Of a DNA stretch of 64,000 nt, positions 11,587 through 17,467 are shown in pieces (positions within the stretch are counted from its first letter, which is position 1; every line of letters starts with the position of its first letter). The notes below the pieces were generated by a model that saw only the letters and a list, made by a program, of their open reading frames with translations, made no database searches and had not been told where the DNA came from. The DNA comes from Aquisphaera giovannonii. Lineage in GTDB: Bacteria; Planctomycetota; Planctomycetia; Isosphaerales; Isosphaeraceae. The stretch is from NCBI RefSeq assembly GCF_008087625.1, contig NZ_CP042997.1, positions 1,054,001-1,118,000 on the forward strand, read 5' to 3'. The position numbers were made by a program, and so were the translations under genes.

Positions 11587-11886
11587 ATGTCATACGGCGG
11601 CAATGCCGATCCCACGGGGATCCAGGTGACGTTCCTGGACCAGACCGGTTCCAAGTCGGTCAAGGCGGTCATCGCCTACACGGTCCCCGTGAGCCGGATC
11701 ATCCCGAACATCATCACCAAGATGAACCTGCCGGCGACCAGCCCGGACGGCCAACCCATGAGCTACGCGCTGGACCACAAGGAGGGGGGCCGGCGATTGC
11801 TCGAGAACTGGACCCTCGTCGAGGCCGGCATCCAGAACGGCGACCACCTGATCGTCTATCCGGAAGTCGTGGCCGGCCGCCCCTGA
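11587..11886 (+). CDS. Ubiquitin-like (beta-grasp) protein
   Basis: A 99-residue protein. Secondary-structure reading gives a beta-hairpin (IQVTFLDQTGSKSVKAVI), a helix (VSRIIPNIITKM), then strands and the end 'TLVEAGIQNGDHLIVYPEV'. That last element is typical of ubiquitin and YukD-type folds (leucine, then a G-x-x-x-G-D-x-L turn). The tail ends VVAGRP, so there is no C-terminal di-glycine. A strong ribosome-binding site AGGAGG lies at 11571-11576, 10 bases before the ATG. It is followed after 129 bases by an E2-like gene, then an E1-like and a JAMM protease gene, all on the same strand. The role as a protein modifier is inferred from this neighbourhood. An alternative is an EsaB/YukD-like accessory protein, but no type VII secretion genes are present. 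Confidence 0.75.
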   Translation: MSYGGNADPTGIQVTFLDQTGSKSVKAVIAYTVPVSRIIPNIITKMNLPATSPDGQPMSYALDHKEGGRRLLENWTLVEAGIQNGDHLIVYPEVVAGRP

Positions 11887-12015
11887 TCGGACGGGAATGG
11901 ACCCGACGGCCCGGCCGGTGCCCCGATTCGGCCGGGCCCCTTTCCCCATCCGACACGGCGCCCGCGAACCCTGGAGAGAGGACGGCGACGCCCCGTCGCG
12001 GGTCGCCGCCAGAGC

Positions 12016-13002
12016 ATGTACGAATCCCCTCGCATCCGGCGGCTCAAGAATGACCTCGCGGCGCTCGAGCGCCTCGCCGCGGAGAGCTCCATCTTCCGCT
12101 TCCAGGCCGCCGGGAAGCCCCCGAACGCCTACACGATCACCTTCAACGGCAAGGGCCTGTCCCGCGACCGCGGCAAGGTCCGCGTCGTCCACTCGCACAA
12201 GGTGGAGATCAAGCTGGGGGTCTCCTACCCCCGGACGATCCCGGAGCTCCGGTGGCTGACGCCCGTCTACCACCCGAACATCTCCGAGATCGGCATGATC
12301 TGCCTGGGGGGGTACGGCACCCACTGGGTCCCCAGCGTGCAGCTCGACGAGCTCTGCACGATGCTCTGGGACATGGCCCGCTACCACAACTACGACATCC
12401 GCAGCCCGTACAACCGCGACGCGGCCCTCTGGGTGGCCAACCAGTCCGCGATCCTCTTCCCGACGGACCCGCGCCCGCTGCGCGACCTCCGCGCGGCCCA
12501 GGGCCGGGTCGCGGAGCCGGCCGGCGCCAACGGCCGGCAGGCCGATTCCGATGACGCCCGTTCCCGCCGCCGCGGCCTCTTCCGCATCGGCTCCGACTCC
12601 GGGCCGCCCACCCCCATCGAGCGCGTCCGCCGCTTCATGGAGGGATACGGCTGGTCGCGATCCGAGGACGAGTCGATGCCCCGGCCCTCCCCGGGGCCCG
12701 ACGGCCTCGCCGCCCGGGACGGGGAGGTATGGCAATCCGCGGGCGCCGGCCCGATCGAAGGGCTCGCGATCGACGAGTCGGCCGCGGCCCCTGCCCCTCC
12801 CGGGACGCCCGTCGAGGAGGCCCCGCCGCCGTCCCCGTCCGGAGGAGACCAGACGCCGGCGAGCGCCCCGCCGCCGGCCGCCGATCCGCCCCTCCCCGCG
12901 GACGAGCCCGAGCCGGTCCTCATCCTCGACTGGGACGCGCCGACCCCGGCCGCCTCGCCCCGGCCGTCGCCCGGGGGCGAGGAGATCCTGTTCATCGAAT
13001 GA
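12016..13002 (+). CDS. E2-like (ubiquitin-conjugating enzyme fold) protein
   Basis: A 328-residue protein. Residues 1-165 look like a UBC-fold E2. H86-P87-N88-I89 is followed by C96 in MICLGG and W104 in THWVP. The Asn-to-Cys and Cys-to-Trp spacings (8 and 8) equal those of eukaryotic E2s such as the UbcH5 group, so C96 is the expected thioester cysteine and N88 the oxyanion residue. The fold is also supported by the strand KVEIKLGVSYPRTIPELRW. Residues 166-328 form a long Pro/Ala/acidic tail, probably disordered, ending EEILFIE. No ribosome-binding site is evident close to the ATG; GGAGAGAGG lies about 37 bases upstream. It would receive an activated ubiquitin-like protein from the E1 encoded next. 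The family is confident; the target of transfer is unknown. Confidence 0.85.
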   Translation: MYESPRIRRLKNDLAALERLAAESSIFRFQAAGKPPNAYTITFNGKGLSRDRGKVRVVHSHKVEIKLGVSYPRTIPELRWLTPVYHPNISEIGMICLGGYGTHWVPSVQLDELCTMLWDMARYHNYDIRSPYNRDAALWVANQSAILFPTDPRPLRDLRAAQGRVAEPAGANGRQADSDDARSRRRGLFRIGSDSGPPTPIERVRRFMEGYGWSRSEDESMPRPSPGPDGLAARDGEVWQSAGAGPIEGLAIDESAAAPAPPGTPVEEAPPPSPSGGDQTPASAPPPAADPPLPADEPEPVLILDWDAPTPAASPRPSPGGEEILFIE

Positions 13003-13071
13003 TGACGTGAAAGGATGCGACGGGGCCGACTCGTCGCATCCCCCGCCCCGCGCGCGAGGAGCCCCAGCTCG

Positions 13072-14352
13072 ATGAAGACGGACCAGCCCGCCGCATCCCC
13101 CACGCCGGCCGGTGCGGACGCCGGGGCCGAGGCCGAATCCGCCCCCCTGCGGATCGACGACGACGACCGCTACGGCCGCCTGCGGCTCATCTCGTGGTGG
13201 CGGCAGGAGCGGCTCGCCGCCGCCCGGATCCTGGTCGTCGGCGCGGGGGCGCTGGGCAACGAGGTCCTCAAGAACCTCGCCCTCGTCGGCGTCGGCACGA
13301 CCTACGTCATCGACCTGGACGACGTGGACACCTCCAACCTCTCCCGCTCGGTCCTCTTCCGCGCGGGGGACTCCGGCTCGTCCAAGGCCGAGGTCGCCGC
13401 CCGCCGGGCCCTGGAGCTGAACCCGGAGATCGCCATCCACCCGATCCACGGCGACGTGATCACGGACCTGGGCCTGGGCCTGTTCGCCGACGTGGACCTC
13501 GTCGTCGGGTGCCTGGACAATCGCGAGGCCCGGCTGTGGGTCAATCGGCAGTGCTGGAAGGTCGGCACGCCCTGGGTGGACGCCGGCATCCAGGAGATCC
13601 AGGGCGTGGTCAAGGTCTTCGTGCCGCCGGACTCGGCCTGCTACGAATGCGCCATGACCGAGCGGGACTACCAGCTCCTGAACCTCCGCTACAGTTGCCC
13701 GCTCCTGAAGCGGGACGAGATCCTCGCCGGCAAGGTCCCCACCGCGCCGACGATCGCGTCCATGATGGCCGCGCTGGAGGTCCAGGAGGCCCTGAAGATC
13801 CTCCACGGCATGCCCGTGGCCGCCGGATCCGCCCTGGTCTTCAACGGCGTGGCGAACCAGTTCTACGCGACGCGGCTCCCCCGCCGCGAGGACTGCCTGA
13901 GCCACGAGACCTACCCGGAGCCGACGGAGGCCCCCCTGGGCCACGCGGACTCCGTGGCCGAGGTGTTCGAGCTCGCCCGGCGGCCCCACGGCGACGAGCC
14001 CGGCCTGGAGGGGCCGCTCAGCCTGGCCCTGGAGCGGGAGCTCGTCGCCGCGCTGGACTGCCCGCGGTGCGGCTGGCACGCCGCGGTGAACCGGCCGCGG
14101 ACGAAGGTCCGGCAGTCCGAGGCGACCTGCCCGAATTGCCGCGAGGCCGCGCGGCCGGAGATCCTCAGCAGCGTGGAGGAAGGCTCGCCCCACGCCGCCG
14201 GGGCGTTGAAGGACGCCGGCGTGCCGGCTTACGATATCGTCCGCGTGGACGGCGCGGAGGGCTCCCGGTTCTTCCTGCTGGCCGGCGACCGGCCGGCCGC
14301 CCTCCGGGGGCGCGGCCTCGACCTGAAGTACGACGGGGAGACGGGCCGTTGA
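13072..14352 (+). CDS. E1-like/ThiF-family adenylating enzyme with C-terminal zinc ribbon
   Basis: A 426-residue protein. The ThiF/E1 adenylation domain (about 30-290) has the nucleotide motif VVGAGALGNEV, the D-x-D-x-V-x-x-S-N-L-x-R element (DLDDVDTSNLSR), the DNREARLWVN motif and the typical late helix APTIASMMAALEVQEALKIL. C190 and C193 (CYEC) form the usual first zinc pair. C209 in YSCPLLKR lies where E1 enzymes of the UBA3/MoeB group place the catalytic cysteine. Unusually, the C-terminal region adds C330/C333 and C353/C356 as a second pair set, a zinc ribbon. It is expected to adenylate the C terminus of the ubiquitin-like protein and pass it to the E2. The ATG is preceded by GAGGAG about 13 bases upstream. 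The JAMM gene follows 11 bases downstream. Confidence 0.87.
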   Translation: MKTDQPAASPTPAGADAGAEAESAPLRIDDDDRYGRLRLISWWRQERLAAARILVVGAGALGNEVLKNLALVGVGTTYVIDLDDVDTSNLSRSVLFRAGDSGSSKAEVAARRALELNPEIAIHPIHGDVITDLGLGLFADVDLVVGCLDNREARLWVNRQCWKVGTPWVDAGIQEIQGVVKVFVPPDSACYECAMTERDYQLLNLRYSCPLLKRDEILAGKVPTAPTIASMMAALEVQEALKILHGMPVAAGSALVFNGVANQFYATRLPRREDCLSHETYPEPTEAPLGHADSVAEVFELARRPHGDEPGLEGPLSLALERELVAALDCPRCGWHAAVNRPRTKVRQSEATCPNCREAARPEILSSVEEGSPHAAGALKDAGVPAYDIVRVDGAEGSRFFLLAGDRPAALRGRGLDLKYDGETGR

Positions 14353-14363
14353 GCGGCGACGAG

Positions 14364-15755
14364 ATGAGCTTCGAGGAGGTCCGCTACCGCGAGCCCGTGC
14401 GGATGCTCCGGCCCGATCGCGACGTCCAGTTCGCCTGCCTCTCCTACCAGGTCCCCGGCCAGGCCGACCTCCCCATCTTCGTCGACCATCGCGCCGCCGA
14501 CGCCATGGAGCGGCACGCCCTCTCGGACACGTCGGTGGAGCTCGGCGGCATCCTCCTGGGCAAGGAGTGCGTGGACGAGCGGACGAACACCCCGTTCGTC
14601 TGGGTCACGCAGTCCCTGGAGGCCAAGCACTACGCCAACACCCAGGCGAGCTTCACCTACACCCACGACTCCTGGGAGGAGATCAGCCGCGAGCGCGACC
14701 GGAAGTTCCCGGACCTGGACATCGTGGGCTGGTACCACACCCACCCGAGCTTCGGCATCTTCCTCTCGCATCACGACCTGTTCATCCACGAGCACTTCTT
14801 CGCCCAGCCGCTCCAGTTGGCCTACGTCATCGACCCGATCCAGCAGACGCGCGGGTTCTTCCAGTGGCGCGACCGGCGGATGGTGCAGGTGGAGGGCTTC
14901 TACCTGACGGCCGACCGCGGCGACCGCATGGACCTGGCGCGGGTGGCCAATGAAATCGAGAACTTCCCCAGCCCCCAAGGCCAAGGAGGCGGTGGCCTGT
15001 CCCCCCGCCTCGAGGCGGAGCTCATCAAGATGCTCTCTCGACCCGCGGCGCCCGCGTACGTCCCGTCCCCGGCCGACCGGGCCCAGGCGGCCGTCACCTT
15101 CGGCCTGCTCGGGATGCTCCTGGGCATGATCGGGATCATCGGCGCGCTCTGGATGTACCAGCTCAACGCGCGGATGCAGGAGCAGGCCGACACCCTGAAG
15201 ACGCTCGCCGGCGCCGTGGACCGGACCGCGGGCAGCCAGCGGCTGGCCGTGGACACCCTGCTGGACCGGGCCGGCAAGGAGTCCCCGGCGGACTTCCAGG
15301 AGCGCTACGAGCGCGTGGGCAAGGCCCGCGACGAGGCCCGCGCGAAGGCCGCCGCGCAGGAGGCCGTCATCGTGGCGCTGGGCGAGCGGACCAAGGACCT
15401 GGAGCAGCGGTCCGCCAAGCTCGCCGAGGACCTCGCCGCCGAGAAGGAGAAGGCGGAGGCCAACGAGGCCGACGCCAAGCTCACCCGCAAGCTGCGGGAC
15501 CGGGTCGCCGACCTCGAGTCGGACCACGACCGGCTCAAGGCCATCTCCGAGACCGTCGAGGGGAAGGCCGCCGACGAGGCCCTCCGCCGCCTGGGCGTCT
15601 TCAAGACCGCGACCTACGCCCTCGGCTTCCTGAGCCTGGCCCTCGCCGCCGCCCTCGCCATCGTCTACACGAGGTCGATCGACGAGCCGGCGTCCGCGCC
15701 GTCCCCGACGCCCCCCCCCCGCCCCTCCGAGCCGACGACCCACCGCATCACATGA
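14364..15755 (+). CDS. Membrane-anchored JAB/MPN+ (JAMM) metalloprotease
   Basis: A 463-residue protein. The JAB/MPN domain (about 25-190) has a complete JAMM zinc site: E59 in SVELGGILLG and H125-x-H127-P with D138 in HTHPSFGIFLSHHD. Members with this site remove ubiquitin-like proteins or trim their precursors. The domain is followed by a transmembrane segment (about 242-265, FGLLGMLLGMIGIIGALWMY), a long charged coiled coil (about 270-405), a second hydrophobic segment (about 414-435) and a proline-rich tail. The protease would therefore be tethered to a membrane, unlike usual bacterial JAB proteins. A TTG codon 15 bases upstream overlapping the E1 stop is an alternative start. The stop codon overlaps an ATG of the next open frame as ATGA. 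Confidence 0.87.
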   Translation: MSFEEVRYREPVRMLRPDRDVQFACLSYQVPGQADLPIFVDHRAADAMERHALSDTSVELGGILLGKECVDERTNTPFVWVTQSLEAKHYANTQASFTYTHDSWEEISRERDRKFPDLDIVGWYHTHPSFGIFLSHHDLFIHEHFFAQPLQLAYVIDPIQQTRGFFQWRDRRMVQVEGFYLTADRGDRMDLARVANEIENFPSPQGQGGGGLSPRLEAELIKMLSRPAAPAYVPSPADRAQAAVTFGLLGMLLGMIGIIGALWMYQLNARMQEQADTLKTLAGAVDRTAGSQRLAVDTLLDRAGKESPADFQERYERVGKARDEARAKAAAQEAVIVALGERTKDLEQRSAKLAEDLAAEKEKAEANEADAKLTRKLRDRVADLESDHDRLKAISETVEGKAADEALRRLGVFKTATYALGFLSLALAAALAIVYTRSIDEPASAPSPTPPPRPSEPTTHRIT

Positions 15756-17467
15756 CGCCGACGGGAACGTGGAATCCAATGGCCGTAGCGCATGATGGTT
15801 GCCTGGCGCACGAGGGCCGGACCTTGTGGGATGGCCGAGCCCCGTGGGAGCCGGCTCCGTCCGGCGACCGCGCGAGCCAAAGCCCGCGGAACGGGTTAGC
15901 TGTGATGACGCGCAGCGGCACCACGGTCGGACAGGCCAAGGCGAGAGGACAGGCTTCGCCGCATCGCCGAGGCGATCCCGTGGCATCGCCTTCGGCTCTG
16001 CCACAGCCACCCGTCTCTCGACGGCCGGGGAAGGCCGTATCCGATTCTCACTTTACAAAGTGGGGACACAGGTGGGAGCTTCGATCGCCTGGGCCCGCGT
16101 CATACACCCCCTCTAACTCCCCCTTCGTAAGGGGGAGAACCGAACTCGCTTCCCCTCGTCCGGGGGTACGCCCGGACGATCTCGTTCGTGGGACGAGCTC
16201 CAACACGTCCGCCCTCCTGGCCCTCGCCATCTTTCTCCTGATGCTCGCGCCGCACGCCACCGCCGAGCCGCCCCCCACCCCCGGGGCCTCGACCGCTGCC
16301 GCCGCCCCGGGCGCGGACGAGCTGACGCCCGTGGAGGTCCCCGCGCCCACGGAGAAGGCCCTCCGGTACTACGAGGGCAACATGCGGCTCTGGGCCTTCC
16401 ACGTCGCCTGGTCCATCCTGGTGCCGGCCGCGATCTTTTTCAGCGGCCTCTCCGCGCGGATCCGGGACCTGGCTCGGCGGATCGGCCGCGGCTGGCTGCC
16501 CACGGTGGCGATCTACCTCGTGCTCTACCTGGGTCTGAACGCCGCGCTCGACCTGCCGTTCGACTATTACGCCGGGTTCGTGCGCCAGCATGCCTACGGG
16601 ATGTCCAACCAGACCTTCGCCAAGTGGCTGACCGACCTCGTGCTCGGCCTGGGCGTGGACATGCTCGGCGCCGCGGCCTTCGGCTGGGTGCCGTTCCTGC
16701 TGCTCGCCCGCTCGCCCCGCCGCTGGTGGCTGTACGTGGCGATCCTCTGGGTGCCCTTCCTGTTCTTCGTCGTGCTCATCAAGCCGATCTGGATCGACCC
16801 GCTGTTCAACACGTTCGGCCCGATGAAGGACCCGGCGCTCGAGCGGTCGATCCTCGACCTGGCCTCGCGGGCGGGGATCGAAGGGGGCCGGGTCTTCGAG
16901 GTGGCCAAGCGGGTGGACACGAACGCGATGAACGCCTACGTGACCGGCCTGGGGGGCACCAAGCGGATCGTCCTCTGGGACACCCTGATCGCCGGCCTGG
17001 GCGAGCGCGAGCTCCTCGTGGTGATGGGCCACGAGATGGGCCATTACGTCCTGGGCCACGTCCTCCGGACGATCCTCCTCTCCTCGCTCGTCATGCTCCT
17101 GGGCCTGTTCCTCGTGGACCGCGTCGGGCGGGCCGTCCTGGCGAAGTTCGCGAGCCGGGCCGGCGTGCACGACCTGGCCGACGTCGCCTCGGTCCCGCTC
17201 CTCGCCCTGCTCATCGCCGTCAACGGCCTGCTCCTGGGCCCCATCGCGATGGCCTACAGCCGCCACCAGGAGCACGAGGCCGACCGCTTCGCGCTCGACC
17301 TGACGCACGCCAACCACTCCGCCGGGATGGCCTTCGCGAAGCTCCAGAGAGAGAACCTGGGCAACCCCCGCCCCGGCCCGATCTACACGTTCTTCCGGGC
17401 CAGCCACCCGAGCATCGGCGACCGGATCGACTTCTCGAACGCCTACCACCCCTGGGCCGACCGGTGA
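15752..17467 (+). CDS. M48 family (Ste24/HtpX-type) integral membrane metalloprotease, start uncertain
   Basis: The conserved protein begins near 16190 with a Sec signal-like segment (SALLALAIFLLMLAPHATA) and continues through several membrane segments to the zinc motif HEMGH (near 17030) and the second motif EHEADRFALDL (near 17275). This is the plan of CAAX prenyl protease 1/HtpX-like M48 enzymes, which cleave within or near membranes. The open frame runs back without a stop to an ATG at 15752 that overlaps the JAB stop as ATGA, but the 150 residues so added are repeat-derived DNA with no protein similarity. In-frame ATGs at 16241 and 16383 are alternatives, and neither has a ribosome-binding site. 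I infer that the original start lay at the JAB junction and that repeat DNA was later inserted. It converges with the next gene. Confidence 0.8.
   Translation: MTPTGTWNPMAVAHDGCLAHEGRTLWDGRAPWEPAPSGDRASQSPRNGLAVMTRSGTTVGQAKARGQASPHRRGDPVASPSALPQPPVSRRPGKAVSDSHFTKWGHRWELRSPGPASYTPSNSPFVRGRTELASPRPGVRPDDLVRGTSSNTSALLALAIFLLMLAPHATAEPPPTPGASTAAAAPGADELTPVEVPAPTEKALRYYEGNMRLWAFHVAWSILVPAAIFFSGLSARIRDLARRIGRGWLPTVAIYLVLYLGLNAALDLPFDYYAGFVRQHAYGMSNQTFAKWLTDLVLGLGVDMLGAAAFGWVPFLLLARSPRRWWLYVAILWVPFLFFVVLIKPIWIDPLFNTFGPMKDPALERSILDLASRAGIEGGRVFEVAKRVDTNAMNAYVTGLGGTKRIVLWDTLIAGLGERELLVVMGHEMGHYVLGHVLRTILLSSLVMLLGLFLVDRVGRAVLAKFASRAGVHDLADVASVPLLALLIAVNGLLLGPIAMAYSRHQEHEADRFALDLTHANHSAGMAFAKLQRENLGNPRPGPIYTFFRASHPSIGDRIDFSNAYHPWADR
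15919..16020. repeat. Dispersed GC-rich intergenic repeat, copy 1
   Basis: The segment starts CACCACGGTCGG and continues through 'gccgaggcgatcccgtggc' and a 'ggctctgccacagccaccc' type palindrome core. The same order of motifs recurs at 62924-63066, where the first motif appears twice. It lies between the JAB gene and the conserved part of the M48 gene. Confidence 0.5.
16117..16137. repeat. Perfect 9-bp-arm palindrome
   Basis: CTCCCCCTT and AAGGGGGAG flank a 3-base loop. It is a short hairpin of the kind found in planctomycete intergenic repeats, immediately upstream of the conserved part of the M48 protease gene. Confidence 0.6.

Follow-up and report, generated by a model that had tools for sequence, protein, structure and literature searches.

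A 64,000-nucleotide stretch of the Aquisphaera giovannonii genome (contig NZ_CP042997.1, positions 1,054,001 to 1,118,000; hereafter the window) contains an operon encoding a ubiquitin-like protein (Ubl), an E2 conjugating enzyme, an E1 activating enzyme and a JAMM protease of the JAB family. These genes probably specify a working, membrane-associated Ubl conjugation pathway that is a core function of the family Isosphaeraceae. The residues of a eukaryotic- or archaeal-type cascade are all present, namely the E1 cysteine, the E2 cysteine with its HPN motif, a full JAMM motif and a C-terminal glycine on the Ubl (49 of 50 sequences). We detected E2s in 35 of 392 sampled Planctomycetota genomes and in 38 of 45 in Isosphaeraceae; the same 38 carry the E1, and no full copy of it was found in the same seven. 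Ubl-conjugation systems of this class were predicted in 2006 (PMC1779556), and our analysis supports the presence of an Iyer/Burroughs/Aravind-type Ubl-E2-E1-JAMM operon in the window.

Operon layout and conserved residues

Homologous loci were gathered from Planctomycetota genomes and then searched with the window and paralogue proteins. We coined the labels A, B and F for the locus types. In Isosphaeraceae, type A runs Ubl-E2-E1-JAB; its relatives outside the family are reordered, as E1-Ubl-E2-JAB and in other ways. Type B has the order Ubl-E1-JAB-...-E2, with RING, FHA and trypsin genes in between in A. giovannonii, and the third group, type F, has the order E1-Ubl-E2-JAB with short E2s. 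The A. giovannonii genome (10.5 Mb, 3 contigs) encodes one type A locus, in the window, and one type B locus.

A preliminary description made from the DNA letters had reported four consecutive genes on one strand, and all four are found on the + strand at the positions it gave, each with a Pfam match over the curated cut-off (YukD, 2.2e-14; UQ_con, 2.7e-11; ThiF, 1.3e-54; JAB, 9.9e-10). Of the gaps it listed, those of 129 and 69 bases are correct if the E1 starts at 13072, and the last, of 11 bases, is probably wrong. An alternative in-frame ATG for the E1 lies at 13015; the start at 13072 is favoured because A. insulae lacks the upstream ATG. We moved the JAB start from 14364 to 14349 since a conserved NTG (within TTGA at 14349 in the window) shares bases with the E1 stop in 16 of the 27 type-A loci listed; an SGDE-like peptide usually follows it. 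The same description had made conservation of the gene order in relatives a condition of the operon reading, and roughly 30 loci of Isosphaeraceae do keep this order, while other Planctomycetota have the four components in different arrangements. Its reading of the operon as a Ubl-E2-E1-JAMM set is supported, but the word "complete" needs qualifying, as relatives add an upstream RING E3 candidate. The features are as follows (window coordinates; SIM, SUMO-interacting motif).

11587-11886, + strand: Ubl of the YukD type (Pfam YukD; AlphaFold2), beta-grasp, 99 amino acids, predicted mature form residues 1-97
11866-11877, + strand: VVAG, predicted mature C-terminus (Ala96-Gly97), from the conservation of Ala-Gly
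11878-11883, + strand: Arg-Pro tail, predicted to be removed by the JAMM protease; tails vary freely among relatives
12016-13002, + strand: E2 conjugating enzyme, 328 amino acids, UBC domain (about 1-160; UQ_con) and Pro/Ala-rich low-complexity tail
12271-12303, + strand: E2 active site, HPN (86-88) and catalytic Cys96, from conservation in 45 E2s
12904-12936, + strand: internal SIM-like motif EPEPVLILDWD in the E2 tail
12979-12999, + strand: C-terminal SIM-like motif EEILFIE at the E2 end
13072-14352, + strand: E1 activating enzyme, 426 amino acids, one adenylation domain and a C-terminal Zn-ribbon/UFD-like part (ThiF; AlphaFold2)
13639-13707, + strand: E1 zinc motif CYEC (190-193) and candidate thioester Cys209 in YSCPLL
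14059-14139, + strand: second E1 zinc site, C330/C333 and C353/C356, at least 90% conserved
14349-15755, + strand: JAMM protease (JAB), 468 amino acids from the TTG at 14349
14736-14777, + strand: JAMM motif HTHPSFGIFLSHHD; the catalytic Glu lies in VELGG at 14535-14549
15093-15665, + strand: JAB membrane anchor by hydropathy, transmembrane segment 1 at 15093-15149, putative coiled coil of about 150 amino acids, transmembrane segment 2 at 15609-15665
15752-17467, + strand: M48 (Ste24/CAAX-type) membrane protease (Peptidase_M48, 5.5e-33), real start downstream of 15752

The AlphaFold2 model of the Ubl (predicted local distance difference test, pLDDT, 88) is a beta-grasp with strands at 11-17 and 24-30, a helix at 35-45 and strands at 57-64 and 87-94. 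Its best Foldseek matches are SUMO1 structures (top of the list), Caldiarchaeum ubiquitin and EccD Ubl domains, which bears out the fold proposed for the 99-residue protein; the nearest solved relative by profile search is Caldiarchaeum ubiquitin (E 0.002). Ala-Gly closes the fold in all but one of the 50 distinct Ubls (A96 invariant, G97 at least 90% conserved). After it, 16 stop exactly, 31 carry 1-11 extra residues and two carry 51 and 146; the longest tail is that of the paralogue in the A. giovannonii genome, an in-frame fusion to a zinc-ribbon/membrane segment. Tail length and sequence differ between close relatives while the core is nearly unchanged: the window and A. insulae Ubls are identical over residues 1-97 (97/97) and differ solely in the last residue, and the ratio of nonsynonymous to synonymous substitution rates between the two species is 0.027 for the Ubl and 0.19 for the E1. 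An Ala-Gly end with a variable tail would be the pattern expected of a modifier precursor that is trimmed to its C-terminal glycine, as ubiquitin precursors are.

The E1 model (pLDDT 90) folds like ThiF, MoeB, UBA3 and SAE2, and eukaryotic E1s are the nearest solved relatives by profile search. It has a single ThiF domain at 39-275. The nucleotide-binding residues, the first zinc pair C190/C193 and Cys209 are invariant in 50 E1s. Cys209 is located 16 residues past the CYEC pair in a loop of about 30 residues with lower pLDDT (70-75), at a spacing roughly similar to that of the reactive cysteines of ThiF and UBA2. Among 45 E2s, H86, P87, N88 and W104 are invariant and C96 is at least 90% conserved; Ubc13/UBE2N are the nearest solved relatives by profile search. 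For the JAB, profile search found Caldiarchaeum and eukaryotic Rpn11 as nearest solved relatives, and E59, H125, H127, S135 and D138 (numbered from 14364), which are the catalytic Glu, both His, the Ser and the Asp, are invariant in 40 sequences. Most type-A JABs have two or more predicted transmembrane segments.

We also found three planctomycete E2-like genes with no E1 or Ubl within about 8 kb (loci L041, L045 and L048). At least one of them, the distant E2 of L048, has lost the catalytic Cys (LHV) and is possibly inactive.

Distribution, candidate E3 and proposed pathway

In type-A loci, the identity of the E1 to the window sequence tracks that of DnaB (Spearman 0.71 over 32 genomes, a descriptive value as relatives are not independent), and the flanking genes are often common to different genera. 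Flank genes were called with a simple heuristic based on GC content at third codon positions (GC3), which in the window chose an antisense open reading frame over the JAB, so that JAB counts in the neighbourhood comparison are too low. The sequence comparisons make the operon look like a vertically kept core locus of Isosphaeraceae, unlike a defence island. The annotated neighbours in the window are Uma2 and GH97 upstream and M48 downstream. Of 32 type-A loci, 18 have an M48 protease after the operon, possibly a functional partner, and an MMPL-type gene was identified in 16. In one genome (L125), JAB, M48 and MMPL are inverted as one block.

Immediately upstream of the Ubl, Singulisphaera and other genera carry a gene for a protein of about 275 residues, which has a hydrophobic segment in its N-terminal part and a Prok-RING_1 domain (7.3e-9) in its C-terminal part. 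Of the 38 Isosphaeraceae genomes with an E2, 36 have an orthologue, hence a candidate E3 exists; the other two are incomplete drafts where the gene is missing or only a weak fragment. By coordinate comparison, 19 genomes have it on the same strand as the E2 and no more than about 2 kb upstream, and conservation of the zinc ligands was seen in 19 orthologues. Genus g283, where both E1 and E2 are absent, yielded no orthologue, and co-occurrence with the E2 gives p = 0.003 in Fisher's exact test, phylogeny being ignored. In A. giovannonii, the orthologue is a solitary gene (C1:4377893-4378885, locus L154) about 3.3 Mb from the operon; the type B locus holds the only two other Prok-RING_1 matches in this genome. 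That the RING protein acts as the E3 is suggested by its co-occurrence with the E2 and its conserved zinc ligands.

We propose the following sequence of steps. The JAMM protease would cut the Ubl after Ala-Gly, as the tail pattern suggests, removing two residues here and having nothing to remove in many relatives. As a probable homodimer of the kind formed by ThiF, MoeB and UBA5, the E1 would adenylate the glycine and take the Ubl onto Cys209, from which it would move to Cys96 of the E2 with support from the HPN asparagine. The membrane-anchored RING protein would then act as E3 towards lysines of targets that may lie at the membrane, the SIM-like ends of the E2 tail may hold the Ubl non-covalently, and the membrane-anchored JAMM protease would take the tag off. 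The predicted transmembrane segments, two in the JAB and, in the RING protein, one close to the N-terminus, would place both the ligase candidate and the protease at the membrane, so envelope-related regulation is the leading guess for the function. From this topology and the M48 neighbour, envelope or membrane-protein quality control or signalling appears more likely than phage defence. As to a proteasome partner, the genome has a single PF00227 match (a frame of 194 amino acids, probably HslV) and no 20S-type pair was found in it.

The type B locus (L006, 4490-12803; C1 about 3.662-3.671 Mb) is a second, paralogous Ubl system of A. giovannonii. It encodes the Ubl-zinc-ribbon/membrane fusion, an E1, a JAB with transmembrane segments, an FHA membrane protein, two Prok-RING_1 proteins, one of which also carries trypsin, an E2 and a DUF2752 protein. 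A six-gene version was seen in another locus (L062, 6523-11482), with Ubl, E2, short JAB, E1, long transmembrane JAB and second E2.

The E2 tail and a basic pair on the Ubl

The tail of type-A E2s is Pro/Ala-rich and very variable in length, and an acidic-hydrophobic motif ends 31 of 32 of them (shuffled tails expect 0.0015). An internal copy is present in 25 of the 32 tails, against 2.1 expected from shuffles; the excess over shuffles overstates the surprise, because the patterns were written after viewing the sequences and the sequences are related. The conservation as such is a direct observation. The likeness of these motifs to SIMs is suggestive only. So is the match between the SIM-like tail and the basic pair R37/K45 of the Ubl, which aligns with K46/R54 of SUMO1 and stays basic in almost every Ubl of types A and B. 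F-type Ubls have Glu/Glu at these positions, and F-type E2s lack the SIM-like tail. A bacterial SUMO-like system, in which a SUMO-type groove of the Ubl binds SIM-like motifs of the E2's own tail and this SIM-guided pair serves a core membrane pathway, is a tentative proposal that we regard as possible but rather doubtful. According to a 2025 review of SUMO, the groove that binds SIMs is not shared by any prokaryotic system to date (PMC12687455).

The tail might also replace an E3 altogether by positioning the donor Ubl. Such RING-free conjugation would fit an operon without RING whose E2s nearly all end in the motif, as well as the retention of R37/K45 in the tail-bearing types and its replacement by Glu/Glu where the E2s are tail-less. 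The RING orthologue of 36 genomes, however, indicates that an E3 is probably used, and we consider conjugation without it unlikely.

Relation to known systems and other explanations

In 2011, Burroughs, Iyer and Aravind reportedly predicted prokaryotic RING/E2/E1/JAB systems with YukD-like Ubls. The window resembles that class in the YukD-like Ubl beside a ThiF-type E1, a classic E2 and a JAB, and in the associated Prok-RING_1 protein; the paralogous locus (3.66-3.67 Mb) has all its components plus FHA and trypsin genes, whereas the window operon has no RING in cis. The Ala-Gly terminus, the core status, the RING link and the SIM-like E2 tail with the basic pair on the Ubl appear to be new here, and the transmembrane-coiled coil-transmembrane arrangement of the JAB was measured here. 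UBA5 is a single-domain homodimeric E1 with its Cys in the crossover loop, and UFM1 has a single terminal Gly and a two-residue tail. The window can be likened to UFM1/UBA5/UFC1 and SUMO/UBC9 by its single-domain E1 and its terminal Gly with a two-residue tail, but it differs from these eukaryotic pathways in being a bacterial operon with SIM-like motifs on the E2 and a JAMM enzyme instead of cysteine proteases.

Caldiarchaeum proteins are the best PDB sequence matches of the window Ubl and JAB profiles. The Caldiarchaeum subterraneum operon encodes an E1, an E2, a small RING and an Rpn11-type JAMM that trims pro-ubiquitin, which provides a precedent for the JAMM step (PMC5654768). That system is archaeal, with a Gly-Gly terminus, a RING inside the operon and, in the passages that describe it, no mention of a membrane anchor on the JAMM, and in these points the window differs.

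The preliminary description had pointed to the anti-phage action of BIL- and Bub-type sets and left membership open. BIL likewise combines Ubl, E1, E2 and JAMM in one operon, with a JAMM that exposes the C-terminal Gly (PMC11354881). In BIL, BilA is a tandem Ubl, BilB carries a CEHH E2 motif (Cys138, Glu144, His146, His151), and BilD has inactive and active adenylation domains plus a helical Cys domain of about 80 amino acids (PMC11354881). By comparison, the window Ubl is a single beta-grasp, its E2 has HPN and Cys96 with Thr and Trp, not Glu and His, at +6 and +8 from the Cys, and its E1 has one ThiF domain and the short Cys loop, so by the tested features of Ubl, E2 and E1 the operon does not belong to BIL. 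Bub operons contain the same component types (PMC12687455) and often adjoin capW, capH+capP or capK+capS regulators (PMC13373217). The genes upstream in the window are Uma2 and GH97 instead, although cap adjacency is frequent rather than universal and its absence says little about Bub membership; no Bub chain stood out among the best 60 PDB matches of the E1 or of the E2.

Defence of this kind, with the Ubl conjugated to phage or host proteins upon infection, would agree with the shared component types and with weak PADLOC matches of the E1 to BilD (2.6e-7, E1 residues 49-172) and to Cap2 (E1-E2). It would also agree with a related E1-Ubl-Ubl-E2-JAB set on a cyanobacterial plasmid, which shows that the wider class can move. 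PADLOC gave no matches for 45 Ubls or for the window E2, and none named BilA, BilB or BilC, the presence of such models in the library being unchecked. In plasmid and phage collections, no E1 match covered 80% of the query. With a locus that is near-universal and vertical in Isosphaeraceae, in a chromosomal context that is often shared and is not one of defence, the suggested anti-phage role is not supported, and we rate it as quite improbable. The plasmid in question is the mobilizable pCRI9333.03 of Crinalium epipsammum (locus L140, 7995-11472); the JAB of its set is a transmembrane one, and one of its Ubls ends in Gly-Gly-Tyr (GGY), the other in VS.

A sulfur-carrier or cofactor pathway of the ThiS/MoaD kind, in which the E1 adenylates the Ubl for sulfur carriage and E2 and JAB are accessories, would suit an E1 fold closest to ThiF/MoeB with conserved adenylation residues. 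It is very improbable, as sulfur carriage gives no role to a complete JAMM or to an E2 that has HPN and Cys, and the genome has another, more distant E1-like gene (C1:3325183). Least probable of all is a non-covalent YukD function in type VII secretion with E1, E2 and JAB as coincidental neighbours, for although the Ubl belongs to Pfam YukD and EccD Ubl domains are close in fold, the one WXG100 match in the genome is more than 6 Mb away, the YukD/EsaB-type adjacency to WXG100 and an EssC-type ATPase was not found, the conserved C-terminal Gly and disposable tail would stay unexplained, and the Ubl-E1-E2-JAB association is conserved across Planctomycetota.

Several observations weigh against a conjugation pathway that is core to the family. 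Phylogenetic independence cannot be claimed for the family and synteny counts. The Ubl terminus is Ala-Gly rather than Gly-Gly, and one Ubl of the 50 (locus L039, 8797-9096) ends in Ala-Ala; its locus yielded no E1, so that this Ubl may be degenerate or mis-sequenced. Aquisphaera and some other genera have the RING gene away from the operon, and three drafts have it without a detected E2 (one of them with an E1 fragment at a contig edge). The class of 2011 reportedly has a C-terminal UFD in its E1; for the UFD-like part of the window E1, the structure comes from the model of the whole protein, whose VIA alignments against UBA3, SAE2 and UBA1 reach residue 406. The idea of membrane quality control leans on topology and on an M48 neighbour found in only about half of the loci, and we found no experimental work on this locus type in the open literature.

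Bacterial Ubl pathways characterised so far are mainly tied to phage defence. The one described here seems to have been passed down vertically as a core function throughout a family, and it resembles a housekeeping system for tagging proteins more than an accessory against phages. With an E1, an E2, a RING E3 candidate and a deconjugase, the operon offers a way to ask what role ubiquitin-type tagging has in an uninfected bacterium, and conjugates can be sought because the Singulisphaera, Aquisphaera and Paludisphaera members are named strains, not metagenome bins. The pairing of E2 tail and Ubl would in turn test whether SIM-type recognition arose before or outside eukaryotes.

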